A stretch of DNA of 64,000 bases, taken from the NCBI RefSeq assembly GCF_030398335.1, contig NZ_JAOAOP010000003.1, positions 124,001-188,000 on the forward strand, in the 5' to 3' direction. Origin of the DNA: Aquibium sp. A9E412 (GTDB lineage Bacteria; Pseudomonadota; Alphaproteobacteria; Rhizobiales; Rhizobiaceae). Position numbers and translations under genes: made by a program. Positions 15,561 through 26,379 of the stretch are shown in pieces (within the stretch, counting starts at the first letter, position 1; every line of letters begins with the position of its first letter). Under the pieces are notes generated by a model. That model did no database searches, was not told the DNA's origin, and saw only the letters and a program-made list of their open reading frames with translations.

Positions 15561-16361
15561 ATGCCACAGCGGCGCGACAATTCGATGACAGACGCCTTCG
15601 CCGACCCGTCCGCCCAGCGGCGCATCGCCATCCTGCCGCTCGGCGCGACCGAGCAGCACGGCCCGCACCTGCCACCCGAGACCGACGCCATCATCGCCGG
15701 CCGGCTGGCGCAGGCGGCCGCCGCGCGCGTGCGCCCCGCCCTCGCGGTCGACGTGCTGCCGGTCGAGGCGGTCGGCTACTCGATCGAGCATGCCGGCTTC
15801 CCCGGCACGCGGAGCCTGTCCTTCGCCGCCGCCGTCGAGCGCTGGGTCGCCGCCGGCGAACGCGTCTTCGCCGCCGGCGGCCGGCGGCTTCTGCTGCTCA
15901 ACGCGCATGGCGGCAACGCGCCGCTGATGACGATCGCGGCGACCGAGCTGCGCGCGCGCCACCCGATGCTGGTCGCGACGACGAGCTGGACGCGCTTCGG
16001 CTACCCGGCCGAGGTGGTGGACGCGCGCGAGCGCGCGCTCGGCATCCATGCCGGCTTCATCGAGACCTCGGTGATGCTGGCGCTGGCGCCGGAGCTGGTC
16101 GCCATGGACAAGGCGGCCGACTTCGCCTCCGCCCAGGCCGGCTTCGAAGACCGCTTCCGCCATCTGCGCGCCTACGGCCCGCACGCCTTCGGCTGGATGA
16201 TGCGCGACCTGTCGCCCGAAGGCGCCACCGGCAACGCGGCCGCCGCCAGTGCGGCGGCCGGCCGCCGCATCGTCGACCACGCGGTCGAAGGGCTGGCCGA
16301 GCTGCTTGCCGACATCGCCGCCTTCGATCTCGGCCATTTCGACGCCGCGCCGGCGCGCTGA
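15561..16361 (+). CDS. Creatininase-family amidohydrolase
   Basis: 266-residue metal-dependent cyclic amidohydrolase of the creatininase/MftE fold. Metal ligands are visible in [19 protein letters not shown] (Glu, His, Asp), in LLLNAHGGN (His) and in [12 protein letters not shown] (Glu). These are all intact, so activity is expected, but the family includes creatininase, formamidopyrimidine amidohydrolase ArfB-like enzymes and others, and the substrate cannot be told here. ATG 15561 gives [11 protein letters not shown] 15585 (MTDAFADP) is an equally possible start, neither with a clear ribosome site. Confidence 0.88.
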
Positions 16362-16455
16362 GCCCCGTGCAATGCCGCCCGCGCCGTCCTATATGGGGCG
16401 CCAGACGGGCCGCGCCCGCCGATCTTCCAGTCCCCTTGGTCCGCGAGGTTTCTCC

Positions 16456-17526
16456 ATGGCACACGCCGACGCGCAAATCCCGGTCACCGTTCTGACCGGC
16501 TATCTGGGAGCCGGCAAGACGACGCTGCTCAACCGCATCCTCAGCGAGAGCCACGGCCGCCGCTACGCCGTCATCGTCAACGAGTTCGGCGAGATCGGCA
16601 TCGACAACGACCTGATCGTGGAATCCGACGAGGAGATCTACGAGATGAACAATGGCTGCGTGTGCTGCACGGTGCGCGGCGACCTGGTGCGTGTCGTGGA
16701 GGGGCTGATGCGCCGGCCCGGCCGCTTCGACGCCATCGTCGTCGAGACCACGGGGCTGGCCGATCCGGCGCCGGTGGCGCAGACCTTCTTCATGGACGAG
16801 GACGTGCGCGCCAAGACGCGGCTCGACGCGGTGGTCGCCCTGGTCGACGCCAAGCACCTGCCCGACCGGCTGAAGGACAGCCGCGAGGCGGAGGACCAGA
16901 TCGCCTTCGCCGACGTCGTCGTGCTCAACAAGACCGATCTGGTCGACGCCGCGGCGCTGGAGCGCGTCGAGGCGACGATCCGCGCCATCAATCCGGCCGC
17001 CCGCATCCACCGCACCACGCGCGCCGGCGTCGACCTCGCCGAGGTGCTCGACCGCGGCGCCTTCGACCTGAAGCGCGCCCTCGACAACGATCCGCACTTC
17101 CTCGACCACGATCACCCGGACCATGTCTGCGGCCCCGACTGCGGGCACGACCACCACGACCACGCGCATCACGATCACGGCCATGACCACGGCCACGCCC
17201 ATGGCCCGGCGCCGATCCACGACCCGACGGTCACCTCGATCGCGCTGTCGGCCGGCGAGATGGACCCCAAGCGCTTCTTCCCCTGGCTCGAGAAGACGAC
17301 GCAGATGGACGGCCCCGACATCCTGCGCCTCAAGGGCATCGTCGCCTTCCGCGACGATCCCGAGCGCTATGTCGTGCAGGGCGTGCACATGATCGTCGAG
17401 GGCGACCACCAGCGCCCCTGGAAGCCGGACGAGCCGCGCCGCAGCCGCATGGTCTTCATCGGCCGCAACCTCGACCGCGAACGCCTCGCGCGCACCTTCG
17501 AGGCGTGCCAGGCGGCGCCGGCATGA
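16456..17526 (+). CDS. CobW/COG0523-family GTPase metallochaperone
   Basis: 356-residue G3E GTPase. Walker A is [15 protein letters not shown], the metal-site CxCC motif is [12 protein letters not shown] (about residues 67-70), base specificity is NKTD, and the C-terminal CobW domain ends [16 protein letters not shown]. Between them (about 217-253) is a His- and Asp-rich loop with some 15 His and a CGPDCGHDH segment, which should bind zinc or a similar metal. Such proteins deliver metal to client enzymes, often under zinc limitation. GAGGT lies eight bases before ATG 16456. I saw no convincing Zur box in the 94 bases upstream. The WD40 gene follows 37 bases later and is its probable partner. 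Confidence 0.93.
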
Positions 17527-18627: not shown

Positions 18628-18660
18628 TGGTCAACGGAACGAATGGAACATATCATGAAC
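18628..18660 (+). promoter_or_regulatory. SOS promoter with LexA box
   Basis: GAACATATCATGAAC at 18646-18660 is an exact GAAC-N7-GAAC, the alphaproteobacterial LexA site. A promoter can be drawn with -35 TGGTCA (18628-18633), a 17-base spacer and -10 TATCAT (18651-18656), so the box sits on the -10. Transcription would begin at about the ATG at 18663, implying a leaderless message; there is no ribosome site in front of that ATG. Confidence 0.75.
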
Positions 18661-18662
18661 GA

Positions 18663-19895
18663 ATGTCCCGTCTCCCGCTGCGCGACAAGCTGGCCGTGCT
18701 GGCCGACGCCGCCAAGTACGACGCCTCCTGCGCCTCCTCCGGCGCGGCCGGGCGCAACTCGCTCAGGTCGCGCGGCATCGGCTCGACGGAGGGCAGCGGC
18801 ATCTGCCATGCCTATGCGCCGGACGGCCGCTGCATCTCGCTGCTCAAGGTGCTGCTGACCAACTTCTGCATCTACGACTGCGCCTACTGCGTCAACCGCT
18901 CGTCCTCGAACACGCCGCGCGCCCGCTTCACGGTCGACGAGGTGGTGCGCCTGACGCTCGCCTTCTATGCCCGCAACTACATCGAGGGTCTGTTCCTGTC
19001 GTCCGGCGTCGTCCGCTCGCCCGACGAGACGATGGCCGAGATGGTGGAGGTCGCCCGCCGGCTGCGGGTGGTGCACGGCTTCCAGGGCTACATCCACCTC
19101 AAGACGATCCCCGAATGCGCCGCGGAGCTGATCGAGGCGGCGGGGCTCCACGCCGACCGCCTGTCGATCAATGTCGAGCTGCCGACGGATGCCGGCCTGC
19201 GCCGGCTGGCGCCGCAGAAGCGGCCCGAGACGATCCGCCTGTCGATGGCGTATCTGCGCGGCAAGCTGGAGGAGCATCACGAGCCGGCGCGGCGCGCGGC
19301 GCGGCCGCGCTTCGCGCCCGGCGGCCAGTCGACGCAGATGATCGTCGGCGCCGACGCGACGAGCGACGCGGCGATCCTGGAGACCAGCGCGCGGCTCTAC
19401 GGCAGCTACCGGCTGAAGCGCGTCTACTATTCCGCCTTCAGCCCGATCCCCGACGCGGCGGCGAGCCTGCCGCCGCAGCGCCCGCCGCTGATGCGCGAGC
19501 ACCGCCTCTACCAGGCCGACTGGCTGATGCGCTTCTACGGTTTCGACCGCAGCGAGATCGTCGCCGGCCGGCCCGACGGCATGCTCGATCTGGCCGTCGA
19601 TCCCAAGCTCGCCTGGGCGCTCGCCAACCGCGCCGCCTTTCCCGTCGACGTCAACCGCGCCGCGCGCGAGACGCTGCTGCGCGTGCCCGGCTTCGGCACC
19701 CGCACCGTCGACCGCATCCTGGCCGCCCGCCGCCACCGCCGGCTGCGGCTCGAGGACGTCGCGCGTCTCGTGCGCAGCGTTGCCGGGGTGCGGGCCTTCA
19801 TCGTCGCCGAAGGCTGGTCGCCGGGCCGGCTGACCGACGATCCGGCGCTGCGCGGCCGGCTGGCGCCGCCGCCGCGGCAGCTGAGCCTGCTGTGA
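18663..19895 (+). CDS. Radical SAM protein, putative DNA modification/repair (UdgX partner)
   Basis: 410-residue radical SAM protein. The cluster motif is CIYDCAYC (about residue 76), preceded by AKYDASCASSG and GICHAYAPDGRCISLLKVLLTNF, which mark the family annotated as putative DNA modification/repair radical SAM proteins. The C-terminal ~80 residues (VDVNRAARETLLRVPGFGTRTVDRILAARR) form a helix-hairpin-helix DNA-binding fold. It overlaps the DUF4130-UdgX gene by four bases and always travels with it as far as I recall. The reaction is unknown. The LexA box two bases upstream of the ATG indicates DNA-damage induction. Confidence 0.9.
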   Translation: MSRLPLRDKLAVLADAAKYDASCASSGAAGRNSLRSRGIGSTEGSGICHAYAPDGRCISLLKVLLTNFCIYDCAYCVNRSSSNTPRARFTVDEVVRLTLAFYARNYIEGLFLSSGVVRSPDETMAEMVEVARRLRVVHGFQGYIHLKTIPECAAELIEAAGLHADRLSINVELPTDAGLRRLAPQKRPETIRLSMAYLRGKLEEHHEPARRAARPRFAPGGQSTQMIVGADATSDAAILETSARLYGSYRLKRVYYSAFSPIPDAAASLPPQRPPLMREHRLYQADWLMRFYGFDRSEIVAGRPDGMLDLAVDPKLAWALANRAAFPVDVNRAARETLLRVPGFGTRTVDRILAARRHRRLRLEDVARLVRSVAGVRAFIVAEGWSPGRLTDDPALRGRLAPPPRQLSLL

Positions 19896-21373
19896 GCGGG
19901 GTGGCGCGCCATGCGGTGCGGCTGTCGGGCCCGGCCGATTTCGACGGCTGGCGCAACGCCGCCCGCCGGCTGCTGACCAACGCCGTCGCGCCGGAGCGCG
20001 TGGTCTGGCTCGTTGGCGGCGAGGGCGACCTGTTTGCCGGTGCGCACATGCTGCCGCCGTTGGCGGCCGGCGCCGCGCCGACGGTGCCGCGCGCCTTTCC
20101 CGAGCGCGCGGCGGCGGCCCTCTGCCACCGCGACCCCGAGCGCTTCGCCCTGCTCTACCGGCTGCTGTGGCGGCTGTCGCGCGAGCCGGGCCTGCTCGAC
20201 ATCGCCTCCGACGCCGACGTCGCCCGGCTGGCGCGGCTCGAGAAGGCGGTGCGGCGCGACGGCCACAAGATGCGCGCCTTCGTGCGCTTTCGCCGGCTGG
20301 CCGAGAGCGACCCGCCGCGCCACGTCGCCTGGTTCGAGCCGGACCACCACATCGTCGAACGCAACGCCCCCTTCTTCGTGCGCCGCTTCACCGGCATGCG
20401 CTGGACGATCCTGACGCCGGACGCCTCGGCCGACTGGGACGGCACGCGGCTGACGATCGGACCGGGCGCGCGGCGGGAGGACGCACCGTGCGAAGACGCG
20501 GCGGAAGCGCTGTGGCAGACCTACTTCACCAGCATCTTCAATCCCGCCCGTCTCAAGGTGAAGGCGATGCAGGCCGAGATGCCGAAGAAATACTGGCGGA
20601 ACCTGCCGGAGGCGCGGCTCATTCCCGAGATGATCCGCGGCGCCGGCCGCGCCAGCGACAGGATGATCGAGGCCATGCCGAGCGCTCCGCCCGCCCATCA
20701 CCACAGCCTGCAGCGCCGCCTGTGGGCGGCGCCCGCCGACGCCGCCGGCCGCCCGTCCGGCAGCGGCGAGCCGGGCGCCGACGCCACCACGCTCGACGCG
20801 CTGGCGCACGCGGCGGCCGACTGCCGGCGTTGTCCGCTGTGGCGCGACGCCACGCAGGCCGTGTTCGGCGAGGGGCCCGGCGACGCGCGGCTCGTCTTCG
20901 TCGGCGAGCAGCCGGGCGACCAGGAGGACATCGCCGGCAAGCCCTTCGTCGGACCGGCGGGGCGGCTGTTCGATTCGGTGCTGGAGGAAGCCGGCATCGA
21001 GCGGCGCTCGGTCTACGTCACCAATGCCGTCAAGCACTTCAAGTTCACGCCGCGCGGCAAGCGGCGCATCCACCAGAAGCCGAATGCCGGCGAGGTGCGC
21101 GCCTGCCGCTGGTGGCTCGACAAGGAGCTCGGCCTGGTGCGGCCCAGGCTCGCCGTGGCGCTCGGCGCGACGGCGATCCAGGGCCTGCTCGGCAAGGCGC
21201 TGCCGGTCACCCGCATGCGCGGCCGCACCGTGCAGCGCGACGACGGCCTCGCCGTCTTCCTGACCATCCACCCGTCCTACGTCCTGCGCCTGCGCGACGA
21301 GGCCGAGAAGGCGGCCGAGCGCGCCCGCTTCCTCGACGATCTGCGCGCCGTGCGGGCCGCCGCCGCGGCCTGA
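19892..21373 (+). CDS. udgX: DUF4130-UdgX fusion, uracil-DNA-binding glycosylase-like protein
   Basis: 493 residues. The N-terminal half (to ~235) is the DUF4130 / 'probable DNA metabolism' domain with RDGHKMRAFVRFR and KKYWRNLPEA. The C-terminal half (about 260-490) is a family 4-like uracil-DNA glycosylase of the UdgX type: Cys of the Fe-S cluster in CRRCPLW and later CRWW, GEQPGD near 338, KHFKFTPRGKRRIHQ near 382-395 and HPSYVLR. The KRRIH loop is the UdgX hallmark whose His forms a covalent bond with uracil in the studied enzyme. The GTG start at 19892 overlaps the radical SAM stop (GTGA). Confidence 0.93.
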   Translation: MSGVARHAVRLSGPADFDGWRNAARRLLTNAVAPERVVWLVGGEGDLFAGAHMLPPLAAGAAPTVPRAFPERAAAALCHRDPERFALLYRLLWRLSREPGLLDIASDADVARLARLEKAVRRDGHKMRAFVRFRRLAESDPPRHVAWFEPDHHIVERNAPFFVRRFTGMRWTILTPDASADWDGTRLTIGPGARREDAPCEDAAEALWQTYFTSIFNPARLKVKAMQAEMPKKYWRNLPEARLIPEMIRGAGRASDRMIEAMPSAPPAHHHSLQRRLWAAPADAAGRPSGSGEPGADATTLDALAHAAADCRRCPLWRDATQAVFGEGPGDARLVFVGEQPGDQEDIAGKPFVGPAGRLFDSVLEEAGIERRSVYVTNAVKHFKFTPRGKRRIHQKPNAGEVRACRWWLDKELGLVRPRLAVALGATAIQGLLGKALPVTRMRGRTVQRDDGLAVFLTIHPSYVLRLRDEAEKAAERARFLDDLRAVRAAAAA

Positions 21374-22798: not shown

Positions 22799-24102
22799 GC
22801 CGGCACCGTCTTGGCCGGCCGGCCCGCGACATAGGTCTCGGCCACGGCACGGTCGTCGCCCATCGTCTGCAGCACGAACAGCTCCTCCGCCAGCGTCTGC
22901 GCCCTCTCCATGCGCAGCCGCATGGCCGGCGTCGCCCGCGCGTCGAGCACCACCAGGTCGGCGTCGCGGCCCGGCTCCAGCGTGCCGATGTGCGCGTCGA
23001 GCGACAGCGCCTCGGCGTTGCCGCGCGTGAGCTGCCAGAAGGAGCGCAGCGCATCGACCTTCTCGCCGGCGAGCGCGGCCACCTTGTAGGCCTCGTCCAT
23101 CGTCTTGAGCATCGAGAAGCTGGTGCCGCCGCCGACATCGGTGGCCGTCGCCACGCGCAGCGGCCGCGCCCGCGTGCGCAGCCGCCGGTCGGCGAACAGG
23201 CCGGAGCCGAGGAACAGGTTCGAGGTCGGGCAGAACACGGCGACCGAGCCGCTGTCGGCCAGCGCGTCGGCCTCGCGATCGGAAAGGTGGATGCAGTGGC
23301 CCATCAGGCTGCGCGGCCCGAGCAGGCCGTAGCGCGCATAGACGTCGGCATAATCGCGCGCCTGCGGGTAGAGCTCGCGCGTCAGCGCGATCTCGGCGTG
23401 ATTTTCCGACAGGTGCGTCTGCACGTGCAGCGCGCGGTGCTCGGCCGCCAGCGCGCCGGCCGCCTCGAGCTGCGCCGGCGAGGAGGTGATGGCGAAGCGC
23501 GGCGTGATCGCGTAGTGCAGCCGGCCGCGGCCGTGCCAGGCGGCGATCAGCGCCTTGCTGTCGTCGTAGCCGGCCTGTGCGGTGTCGGTCAGCCCGTCCG
23601 GCGCGTTGCGGTCCATCAGCACCTTGCCGGCGATCATGCGCATGTCGCGGGCGAGCGCGGCCTCGAAGAACGCCTCGGCCGAGGCGCGGTGCACGGTGCA
23701 GTAGACGGCGGCCGTCGTCGTGCCCTGGCGCACCAGCTCGTCGAGATAGAGGCCGGCGATGCGCGCGGCATGGTCGTGGTCGGCGAAGCGGCACTCTTCG
23801 GGAAAGGTGTAGCGGTTCAGCCAGTCGAGCAGCTCGGCGCCGTAGCTGGCGATCACCTGCATCTGCGGATAGTGCGCGTGGGCGTCGATCAGGCCGGGCA
23901 TGACGAGATGCGGCCGGTGGTCGGCCAGCCGCGCCCCCTCGGCCGCCGGCGCCACCGCGGCGTGGTCGCCCGCCGCGCGGATGATGCCGTCCTCGACGAG
24001 CACCGCGCCGTCCTCCTCGTAGGCGACGGCGGCGTGGTCGTCGGGTCCGGCCGGCTCGGCCAGGAACGACAGCACGCGGCCGCGGATCAGCGTGCGGCTC
24101 AC
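22795..24102 (-). CDS. guaD: Guanine deaminase
   Basis: 435-residue amidohydrolase converting guanine to xanthine, the substrate of the nearby xanthine dehydrogenase. Zinc ligands appear in MPGLIDAHAHYPQMQ (HxH), VQTHLSENHAEI, MGHCIHLSDRE and TATDVGGGTSFSML; ELLDWLNRYTFPEE is a guanine deaminase block that contacts the base. GTG 24102 overlaps the puuD stop by four bases and the stop overlaps the glycerate kinase start by four, so the three genes are translationally coupled. Confidence 0.94.
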   Translation of the reverse strand: MSRTLIRGRVLSFLAEPAGPDDHAAVAYEEDGAVLVEDGIIRAAGDHAAVAPAAEGARLADHRPHLVMPGLIDAHAHYPQMQVIASYGAELLDWLNRYTFPEECRFADHDHAARIAGLYLDELVRQGTTTAAVYCTVHRASAEAFFEAALARDMRMIAGKVLMDRNAPDGLTDTAQAGYDDSKALIAAWHGRGRLHYAITPRFAITSSPAQLEAAGALAAEHRALHVQTHLSENHAEIALTRELYPQARDYADVYARYGLLGPRSLMGHCIHLSDREADALADSGSVAVFCPTSNLFLGSGLFADRRLRTRARPLRVATATDVGGGTSFSMLKTMDEAYKVAALAGEKVDALRSFWQLTRGNAEALSLDAHIGTLEPGRDADLVVLDARATPAMRLRMERAQTLAEELFVLQTMGDDRAVAETYVAGRPAKTVPA

Positions 24103-25322
24103 CGGCGCACCTCCTCGAACCAGGTGACGATCAGCGCCCGTTCGGCCTCCGTCAGCCCCGACACGTTGCCCGGCGGCATCGCCCGGCTGACGCCGGCCTG
24201 CAGGTAGATCTCGCGCGCCCGCTCGGCGATCTCGACGGCGCTGTCGAGCGCCACCGCCTTGGGCGGCCGGCGCACGCCCTCCCAGCCCGGCACCGCCGCA
24301 TGGCACATGGCGCAGCGCCCCATCACCGTGTCGCGCACGGCCGGAAAGTGCTCCGAGGCCATGAACGCCTCGGCCACCGGCGAGGGCGGCGCCTCGGCCA
24401 GGCCGTCGAGCGTCTCCGGCTCGCTCGACAGCCATATGATGACGATGAACAGCACCACCGAGCCGGCCCAGGTCCAGTGCGGATTGCCGCGCCCGGCATG
24501 CAGCGAATTGAAGTAGTGGCGGATCAGGACGCCGATCAGGAACACCAGCGCCGCGATCGCCCAGTTGTGCTGCGTGGCGAAGGCGAGCGGATAATGGTTC
24601 GACAGCATCAGGAAGATGACCGGCAGGGTCAGGTAGTTGTTGTGCAGCGAGCGCTGCTTGGCCTGCTGGCCGAGGATCGCCGCCGGCGTGCGCCCCGCCT
24701 TGAGGTCGGCGACAACCACCTTCTGATTCGGGATGATGATGAAGAACACGTTGGCCGACATGATGGTCGCGGTGAAGGCGCCGAGATGCAGAAGCGCCGC
24801 GCGGCCGGAGAAGATCTGCGTGTAGCCCCAGCTCATCGCCACCAGCACGGCGAACAGCACCAGCATCAGCCCGGTGTCGCTGCGCCCGAGCGGCGACTTG
24901 CACAGCAGGTCGTAGACCAGCCAGCCGAGCGCGATCGAGGCGACCGACAGGCCGATCGCCACCGGCGCCGAGACGTCGAGCACGGTGCGGTCGATCAGAT
25001 AGAGGTCGGCACCGGCGTAGTAGAGGATGGCGAGCAGCGCGAAGCCCGACAGCCAGGTGGCGTAGGATTCCCATTTGAACCAGGTCAGGTGCTCGGGCAG
25101 CGTCGCCGGCGCGACCAGGTATTTCTGGATGTGGTAGAAGCCGCCGCCATGCACCTGCCACTCCTCGCCATGCGCGCCGGGCGGCAGCTCGGGGCGCTGG
25201 CGCAGGCCGAGATCGAGCGCGATGAAGTAGAAGGACGAGCCGATCCAGGCAATCGCGGTGACCACGTGCAGCCAGCGCGCGGCGAAGGCCAGCCACTCCC
25301 AGAAGATTGCGAACTCGTTCAT
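24099..25322 (-). CDS. puuD: Urate hydroxylase PuuD (membrane, cytochrome c domain)
   Basis: 407 residues. Eight or nine hydrophobic helices (WLHVVTAIAWIGSSFYFIALD, LVAPATLPEHLTWFKWESYATWLSG, etc.) form the urate hydroxylase domain, followed by a C-terminal periplasmic cytochrome c domain with CAMCHA (CxxCH) and axial-ligand MPPGNVSGLT. The enzyme oxidises urate to 5-hydroxyisourate in the membrane, replacing uricase or HpxO/FAD types, and passes electrons to the respiratory chain. GAGGA lies seven bases before ATG 25322; the longer reading to 25460 runs through the promoter region and is rejected. First gene of the puuD-guaD-glycerate kinase unit, divergent from the LysR gene. Confidence 0.94.
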   Translation of the reverse strand: MNEFAIFWEWLAFAARWLHVVTAIAWIGSSFYFIALDLGLRQRPELPPGAHGEEWQVHGGGFYHIQKYLVAPATLPEHLTWFKWESYATWLSGFALLAILYYAGADLYLIDRTVLDVSAPVAIGLSVASIALGWLVYDLLCKSPLGRSDTGLMLVLFAVLVAMSWGYTQIFSGRAALLHLGAFTATIMSANVFFIIIPNQKVVVADLKAGRTPAAILGQQAKQRSLHNNYLTLPVIFLMLSNHYPLAFATQHNWAIAALVFLIGVLIRHYFNSLHAGRGNPHWTWAGSVVLFIVIIWLSSEPETLDGLAEAPPSPVAEAFMASEHFPAVRDTVMGRCAMCHAAVPGWEGVRRPPKAVALDSAVEIAERAREIYLQAGVSRAMPPGNVSGLTEAERALIVTWFEEVRR

Positions 25323-25393
25323 GCGGTATCCTCGCCCGTGTCGGCCCGACTTTACGGCTTGCGCGGCGATCCGAAAGGGTGACGACGCCCGAT

Positions 25394-25415
25394 GACTTTC
25401 AAAAAAAAGTGGAAA
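25394..25415. promoter_or_regulatory. AT-rich operator candidate between puuD and the LysR gene
   Basis: GACTTTCAAA starts at 25394 and is part of TTTC-N11-GAAA (25397-25415), a dyad of the form expected for a LysR-type regulator, in a 136-base divergent gap that is otherwise GC-rich. The same ten bases GACTTTCAAA recur at 31744 in the other divergent promoter region of the purine island. Confidence 0.5.
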
Positions 25416-25458
25416 ATAATGCCGCCCGCCACCGGCATCGCACAAGGACGCACAGCGC

Positions 25459-26379
25459 ATGGCCTATCTCGACAACATCGCGGTGTTCGTGCGCGTGGTC
25501 GAGCTCGGCAACCTGTCGGCGGCCGGCCGCGACATGCGCATCTCGCCGGCCGTCGCCTCCAACCGCATCAAGGAGCTGGAGAAGCACCTCGGCGTGCGGC
25601 TGTTCAACCGCACGACGCGCCAGCTCACCCCGACCGAGCACGGCCAGGTCTTCTACGGCGGCGCCAAGCGGGTGCTCGACGCCGTCGGCGAGGCAGAGGC
25701 CGCCGTCGCGGCGCTGTCGGGCCAGCCGCGCGGCACCATCAAGGTCACCGCGCCGCTCGGCCTCGGCCGCCGGCTGATCGCCTCCGGCATTCCCGAGTTC
25801 CGCGACCGCTACCCCGACATCGAGGTGCGGCTCAGGCTGTCCGACCACGAGGTCGACATCATGCGCGAGGGCATCGACGTCGCCTTCAAGCTCGGCCTGC
25901 TGGAGGATTCCAGCCTGCGCATGCGCGGCATCATGGAGTGCGAGCGGGTGCTGGCCGCCGCCCCCGCCTATCTCGCCCGGCGCGGCGAGCCGAAGCGGCC
26001 GGAAGAGCTGGTCGGCCAGCGCCACGACTGCCTGATGCTGCGCTTTCCCGGCGCGCGCGAGCACTCCTGGACGCTGCGCACGCCGGACGGACCGAAGAAG
26101 TTCGAGGTCGGCGGGCCGTTCGATTCCGACGACGGCGACGTCGTCACCGGCTGGGCGCTGGCCGGGCGCGGCATCGTCAACAAGCCGCGCTTCGACATCG
26201 AGCCGTTCCTGCGCGACGGCCGCCTCAAGGTCATCCTCTCGGACTATCCGCCGCTGCCGGTCAAGCTTGCCGCGCTCTACCCGCACAAGAAGTTCCAGGA
26301 CCCCAAGGTGCGGCTGCTGCTCGACTTCATGGCCGAGCGCTGCCAGCGCATGATCGGCGAGACCTTGGCCGGGCGGTGA
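25459..26379 (+). CDS. LysR-family regulator, likely controller of purine catabolism
   Basis: 306 residues: N-terminal winged HTH (FVRVVELGNLSAAGRDMRISPAVASNRIKELEKHLGVRLF) and a C-terminal effector-binding domain of two periplasmic-like lobes starting near GTIKVTAPLGLGRRL. The sub-type (xxRTTRQLTPTEHG, GWALAGRGIVNKPRFDIEPFLRDGRL) is the large CrgA/DmlR-like group. It is divergent from the urate hydroxylase unit and its 3' end faces the end of xdhC, so it sits in the middle of the island. Regulation of both neighbouring promoters is an inference supported by the shared GACTTTCAAA element; urate or another intermediate is the likely ligand. Confidence 0.9.
   Translation: MAYLDNIAVFVRVVELGNLSAAGRDMRISPAVASNRIKELEKHLGVRLFNRTTRQLTPTEHGQVFYGGAKRVLDAVGEAEAAVAALSGQPRGTIKVTAPLGLGRRLIASGIPEFRDRYPDIEVRLRLSDHEVDIMREGIDVAFKLGLLEDSSLRMRGIMECERVLAAAPAYLARRGEPKRPEELVGQRHDCLMLRFPGAREHSWTLRTPDGPKKFEVGGPFDSDDGDVVTGWALAGRGIVNKPRFDIEPFLRDGRLKVILSDYPPLPVKLAALYPHKKFQDPKVRLLLDFMAERCQRMIGETLAGR

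Follow-up and report, generated by a model that had tools for sequence, protein, structure and literature searches.

The association of DUF4130 proteins with radical S-adenosylmethionine (SAM) enzymes and uracil-DNA glycosylases (UDG) was noted in 2013 (PMC3765255). A study on Bacteroidetes places a COG1573-COG4277 operon, taken to be a putative excision-repair system, under LexA control, citing earlier reports of SOS regulation of the same operon in Verrucomicrobia and Alphaproteobacteria (PMC8565304). In Clostridium acetobutylicum, footprinting predicts LexA control of CAC3343-CAC3344, the first of which bears the same radical SAM annotation (PMC3828012), and an Acinetobacter gene of that annotation is upregulated on desiccation (PMC13130816). 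The radical SAM, DUF4130 and UdgX components are already named as linked in NCBIfam. Here we analyze an operon of this type in a 64,000-nucleotide (nt) stretch of Aquibium sp. A9E412 (contig NZ_JAOAOP010000003.1, positions 124,001 to 188,000; hereafter the window), in which a radical SAM gene, whose family we take to be the COG4277 of the literature, is followed by a gene encoding a DUF4130-UdgX fusion. The initial annotation had put the pair forward as a candidate undescribed system, a claim that is not supported, since its families carry names (TIGR03916, TIGR03915 and TIGR03914) and regulation of such operons by the SOS system has been published elsewhere. On the basis of sequence comparison, our analysis adds a quantified conservation of the operator over two LexA motifs, a constant promoter-to-ATG distance with a movable box, a seemingly obligate linkage of the radical SAM protein with DUF4130 in which UdgX is optional, and three additional invariant cysteines in the radical SAM protein.

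The locus shares with the COG1573-COG4277 operon the adjacency of a UDG-family gene and a radical SAM gene, a predicted LexA control and a presence in Alphaproteobacteria, but here the UDG is a UdgX domain fused to DUF4130 and encoded downstream of the radical SAM gene; a LexA box over the -10 element and a probable leaderless start were not found in the available part of that account (PMC8565304). CAC3343-CAC3344 similarly combines a radical SAM DNA modification/repair protein, a downstream protein and a predicted LexA site, but Clostridium belongs to a different phylum with a different type of LexA box. A literature search covering few subscription papers found neither a published reaction for the radical SAM enzyme nor a leaderless LexA-box geometry. 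The promoter and genes of the operon are as follows, in window coordinates.

18628-18633, plus strand: -35 hexamer TGGTCA, with a 17-nt spacer, of the sigma-70-type promoter that scores best ahead of the radical SAM gene (from sequence).
18646-18660, plus strand: LexA box GAACATATCATGAAC, an exact match to GAAC-N7-GAAC.
18651-18656, plus strand: -10 hexamer TATCAT, within the LexA box, with 6 nt between its end and the ATG (from sequence).
18663-19895, plus strand: radical SAM protein of 410 amino acids (aa), TIGR03916 rSAM_link_UDG (537.3 bits against a cut-off of 343.5), also matching PF04055.
19892-21373, plus strand: DUF4130-UdgX fusion of 493 aa with a GTG start, TIGR03915 and TIGR03914 both above cut-off.

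The sequence confirms the arrangement described by the initial annotation: an exact GAAC-N7-GAAC direct repeat lies on a TGGTCA-N17-TATCAT promoter, overlapping the -10 hexamer and ending 2 nt before the ATG of the radical SAM gene (18663), which agrees with the direct repeat (GAAC-N7-GAAC or GTTC-N7-GTTC) at the promoter that marks an alphaproteobacterial LexA site. The number of such boxes is in itself uninformative. The site is the only exact match in the window, where 0.89 would be expected by chance, and the Aquibium genome contains 72 exact matches (host counts refer to exact matches only) versus 33 for a reversed control pattern, so many single genomic sites are noise. We therefore rejected box counts in window or genome as evidence, and the significance of the site rests on its position and its conservation.

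To quantify conservation we used a first set of 110 orthologue loci, which came from the family of Aquibium and from named genomes, and a second set in which further loci were added and duplicates removed, yielding 141 distinct alphaproteobacterial upstream regions and 29 from other Pseudomonadota, with expectations obtained from shuffled sequences. The direct repeat is exact and near the start in 107 of the 110 loci, the remaining three carrying one mismatch, and it is exact in 138 of the 141 distinct regions (0.36 expected), with only ten exact boxes in the 637,514 nt of DNA flanking the orthologue loci. This outcome of the scan that the initial annotation had proposed lends support to its reading of the box as the alphaproteobacterial SOS site. 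None of the 29 upstream regions from other Pseudomonadota contains the alphaproteobacterial box; 19 contain instead an exact CTGT-N8-ACAG, a different LexA box (0.04 expected), and several of the others carry a version with one mismatch. The replacement of one box type by another outside Alphaproteobacteria indicates that the link between the operon and LexA survived changes in the LexA motif. Although regulation of the operon has already been published for relatives, these comparisons strongly support GAACATATCATGAAC as a real, conserved LexA operator at the promoter, and point to an SOS control that is real and widely conserved.

In three of the non-alphaproteobacterial loci (L225, L226 and L238) the CTGT-N8-ACAG box overlaps the predicted GTG start codon. 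Separately, a gut contig filed as phage but of uncertain origin (L186) has two exact copies of GAAC-N4-GTTC, the Gram-positive type of SOS box, upstream of its radical SAM gene.

The regulon of the Aquibium genome, read at exact pattern matches, includes its own repressor. The lexA gene (C66:110119; TIGR00498, 182.5 bits) carries an exact box about 50 nt upstream (C66:110054-110068), and a box lies 6 nt ahead of the start of a gene for a DinB-type polymerase (dinB). In an imuA-like gene on the minus strand (L152), 2 nt separate the end of the box GAACATAACAGGAAC from the ATG, the same spacing seen in the radical SAM gene; the imuA assignment is tentative, since the 166-aa fragment has no Pfam match. 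A further boxed gene is a 28-aa hydrophobic open reading frame (ORF), MTNFVQDVASLVAVSSFIVAAAVLIGAV (L157/L255; C94:22610-22693), which has a Shine-Dalgarno motif and, 33 nt upstream, a LexA box that is likewise exact. Matches to this ORF occur in 31 of 101 family genomes; all 19 copies read, among them those of the relatives L256-L273, are exactly 28 aa long, and an exact GAAC-N7-GAAC precedes each of the 18 for which the sequence extends far enough upstream. Its size and membrane character are reminiscent of SidA-type SOS division inhibitors.

The position of the box relative to the start codon follows a regular pattern across 106 distinct alphaproteobacterial upstream regions. The distance from box end to start is mostly 0-7 nt, the commonest values being 2 nt (35 regions) and 14 nt (16 regions). 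In both of these classes the best sigma-70-type -10 element ends 6 nt before the start, with the box lying over the -10 element in the 2-nt class and in the spacer in the 14-nt class. A distance of 6 nt between -10 end and start is also the overall mode (46 of 106), and most orthologues fall between 5 and 9 nt. In 79% of the regions this distance is 3-10 nt, compared with 11% in shuffled sequence. When a -10 element ends 6 nt before an ATG, the usual +1 falls on the A of that ATG, which is where transcription is predicted to start in the radical SAM gene. The short distance between -10 element and start codon thus makes a leaderless message likely, and what the initial annotation had offered as a possibility can now be regarded as probable. 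Orthologous radical SAM genes start with ATG in nearly all cases, and of the 80 upstream regions in which the box is close, only 4 contain a Shine-Dalgarno-like motif (76 lack one), as expected for leaderless messages. We do not take the scarcity of Shine-Dalgarno motifs as independent proof, for which it is weak evidence because DUF4130 starts mostly lack one too. Leaderless mRNAs are common in Alphaproteobacteria, with 375 reported in C. crescentus (PMC4117421) and 171 in S. meliloti, all of the latter starting with AUG (PMC3616915).

The distribution of the components among 398 Pseudomonadota genomes indicates which of them belong together. The radical SAM gene is found in 84 genomes, every one of which also encodes DUF4130, itself present in 88. 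UdgX scores above cut-off in 63 of the 84 and is missing from 21, and it occurs without the radical SAM gene in 15 genomes. Of the 110 close loci, 99 encode the DUF4130-UdgX fusion; nine encode DUF4130 without UdgX and retain the box (eight exact, one with a single mismatch). Given the complete co-occurrence of radical SAM and DUF4130 and the absence of UdgX from 21 genomes, we regard the former pair as the core of the system and UdgX as an add-on. The same data weaken the proposal of the initial annotation that the module acts on uracil: the LexA box persists in orthologues without UdgX. Two order-mates of Aquibium (L244 and L245) have lost the radical SAM gene and keep an alphaproteobacterial box, GTTCATGATATGTTC, upstream of DUF4130-UdgX.

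A search of viral contigs returned one radical SAM match and no DUF4130 match, and hence revealed no phage-borne reservoir. A contig filed as Acinetobacter phage MD-2021a (CAKLQH020000003.1; L183) was discarded as a phage instance, since glyS, glyQ and aidB surround its radical SAM-DUF4130 pair and it looks like a bacterial chromosome.

Within the two proteins, the following segments and motifs can be delineated.

18729-18833, plus strand: N-terminal segment of the radical SAM protein with the extra invariant cysteines C23, C48 and C57, plus H49 (from alignments).
18867-18890, plus strand: radical SAM motif C69-x3-C73-x2-C76 (from sequence), invariant in both alignments.
19596-19727, plus strand: helix-hairpin-helix (HhH)-like segment, a probable DNA contact (PF14520 at 20.4 bits, below the 27-bit cut-off; weak ComEA and RuvA matches).
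20135-20611, plus strand: DUF4130 domain (PF13566, 134.4 against 27 bits).
20618-21352, plus strand: UdgX domain (TIGR03914, 325.6 against 189.95 bits).
20903-20917, plus strand: UdgX GEQPG motif, residues 338-342.
21059-21073, plus strand: UdgX KRRIH R-loop with the adduct-forming His, residues 390-394.

Membership of the first protein in the radical SAM superfamily follows from the invariant CX3CX2C motif, a PF04055 score of 40 bits against 29.5 and a predicted model whose nearest folds, HydE and lipoyl synthase, agree with the partial TIM barrel of the superfamily. The residues C23, C48, C57 and H49 do not vary across 71 aligned sequences, the most distant of them at 46% identity, or in a 44-sequence alignment. 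This invariance suggests the hypothesis that the three cysteines hold an auxiliary iron-sulfur cluster; it is the evidence available for it because the model has very low confidence in residues 21-56 (predicted local distance difference test of about 30), where the cysteines are not placeable in space. These two are the PDB structures that come closest to its modelled core, at a Z of about 17. In lipoyl synthase, an auxiliary cluster is bound by N-terminal cysteines, but neither lipoyl synthase nor HydE has a family-level sequence match to the protein, the spacing of its extra cysteines is different and their substrates are not DNA. Spore photoproduct lyase (SplB) is also a radical SAM protein tied to DNA repair and, in other species, to SOS control, yet the protein analyzed here is distinguished by its three further invariant cysteines and its HhH-like segment. 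We rejected its identification as SplB, since TIGR03916 is the only match in NCBIfam (E up to 0.001).

The second gene starts at a GTG that overlaps the radical SAM stop codon by 4 nt (GTGA), and its product belongs to the DUF4130 family (TIGR03915, 214.7 against 112.25 bits). No significant match to DUF4130 emerged when the PDB was searched with a profile, and a fold search with the full fusion model recovered UDG folds only, with residues before 292 barely covered. The UdgX domain, which also contains the HPS motif (residues 460-466), is closely related to M. smegmatis UdgX (6ajo, 6iod, 6l6s), sharing its GEQPG and KRRIH motifs, 52% identity and a nearly identical predicted fold (Z of 31.2 and a root-mean-square deviation of 1.4 over 200 residues against 6l6s). 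The solved M. smegmatis structures are of a single-domain protein, whereas here UdgX is fused to DUF4130. The UdgX motifs are intact in nearly all fused copies among orthologues. The UdgX-bearing protein can probably trap uracil in DNA. UdgX has been proposed to shield abasic sites from fragmentation under stress (PMC10359453), a role that would suit an SOS operon.

Elsewhere in the window, the operon is flanked on one side by a gene of the creatininase family and, after it, one for a CobW-type GTPase (15561-17526), and on the other by a Urate_ox_N (PF06181) gene (24102-25460).

Our preferred interpretation, to which we assign a probability of roughly 0.8, is that the operon constitutes a LexA-repressed, damage-inducible, leaderless two-gene unit for DNA repair or modification, with the radical SAM protein and DUF4130 as its core and UdgX as an add-on. 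LexA bound to GAAC-N7-GAAC would cover the -10 element and block RNA polymerase, and RecA-triggered cleavage of LexA would free the promoter after damage. Transcription would then begin at the ATG or a few bases away, producing a leaderless mRNA from which the DUF4130-UdgX gene may be translated by coupling through the GTGA overlap. As for the enzymology, we infer that the radical SAM enzyme, contacting DNA through its HhH-like segment, and DUF4130 act on a damaged or modified base, and that the fused UdgX excises uracil and remains covalently attached to the resulting abasic site. Two observations weigh against parts of this interpretation. In some relatives, such as the Bradyrhizobium-like loci L204-L207, the box lies about 80 nt upstream, so the leaderless start is not universal; and Bosea orthologues start with TTG and have a GGAG-type motif upstream of it.

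A more specific proposal, which we advance tentatively, is that an obligate radical SAM-DUF4130 pair performs a novel DNA reaction with the help of a second iron-sulfur cluster on C23, C48 and C57, its target being a base that is undamaged or SOS-generated, under control of the leaderless promoter and with UdgX as a later add-on. Less probable than the preferred interpretation is a uracil base-excision repair unit with UdgX as its main enzyme, which the radical SAM protein and DUF4130 would assist, for instance by resolving the UdgX-DNA adduct. The prevalence of the fusion (99 of 110 loci), with GEQPG and the adduct-forming His conserved, favors such a unit, and the operon is termed a putative UDG-based excision system in an earlier account (PMC8565304), but a central role for UdgX fits poorly with its absence from 21 of the 84 radical SAM-DUF4130 genomes, with the LexA box kept in UdgX-less orthologues and with the 15 genomes that have UdgX and no radical SAM gene. 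We consider it unlikely that the radical SAM-DUF4130 pair deliberately alters bases during the SOS response, with UdgX processing the products and the mutation rate rising as a result: the operon does share SOS control with error-prone polymerases, but a common regulon cannot tell repair from mutagenesis. A damage-induced defense against phages whose DNA carries uracil or modified bases appears very improbable, even if UdgX would attack uracil-containing DNA and infection can bring SOS induction, since neither protein matches a model in the (non-exhaustive) PADLOC library and the operon follows LexA boxes across the phylum, flanked by metabolic genes. The possibility that the box arose by chance, with the operon outside LexA control, can be practically dismissed, for although about one exact GAAC-N7-GAAC is expected per 64 kb, chance accounts neither for 138 exact boxes where 0.36 are expected nor for the substitution of another LexA motif in other Pseudomonadota.

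For the study of this family, the analysis makes DUF4130, rather than UdgX, the partner to examine alongside the radical SAM enzyme, in which C23, C48 and C57 are the first residues worth testing. If true, a leaderless promoter with a box that slides between the -10 element and the spacer would constitute a distinct design for an SOS gene. More broadly, SOS control of the operon appears to have been kept over two or more LexA specificities within Pseudomonadota, and contigs of Gram-positive type hint at the same.
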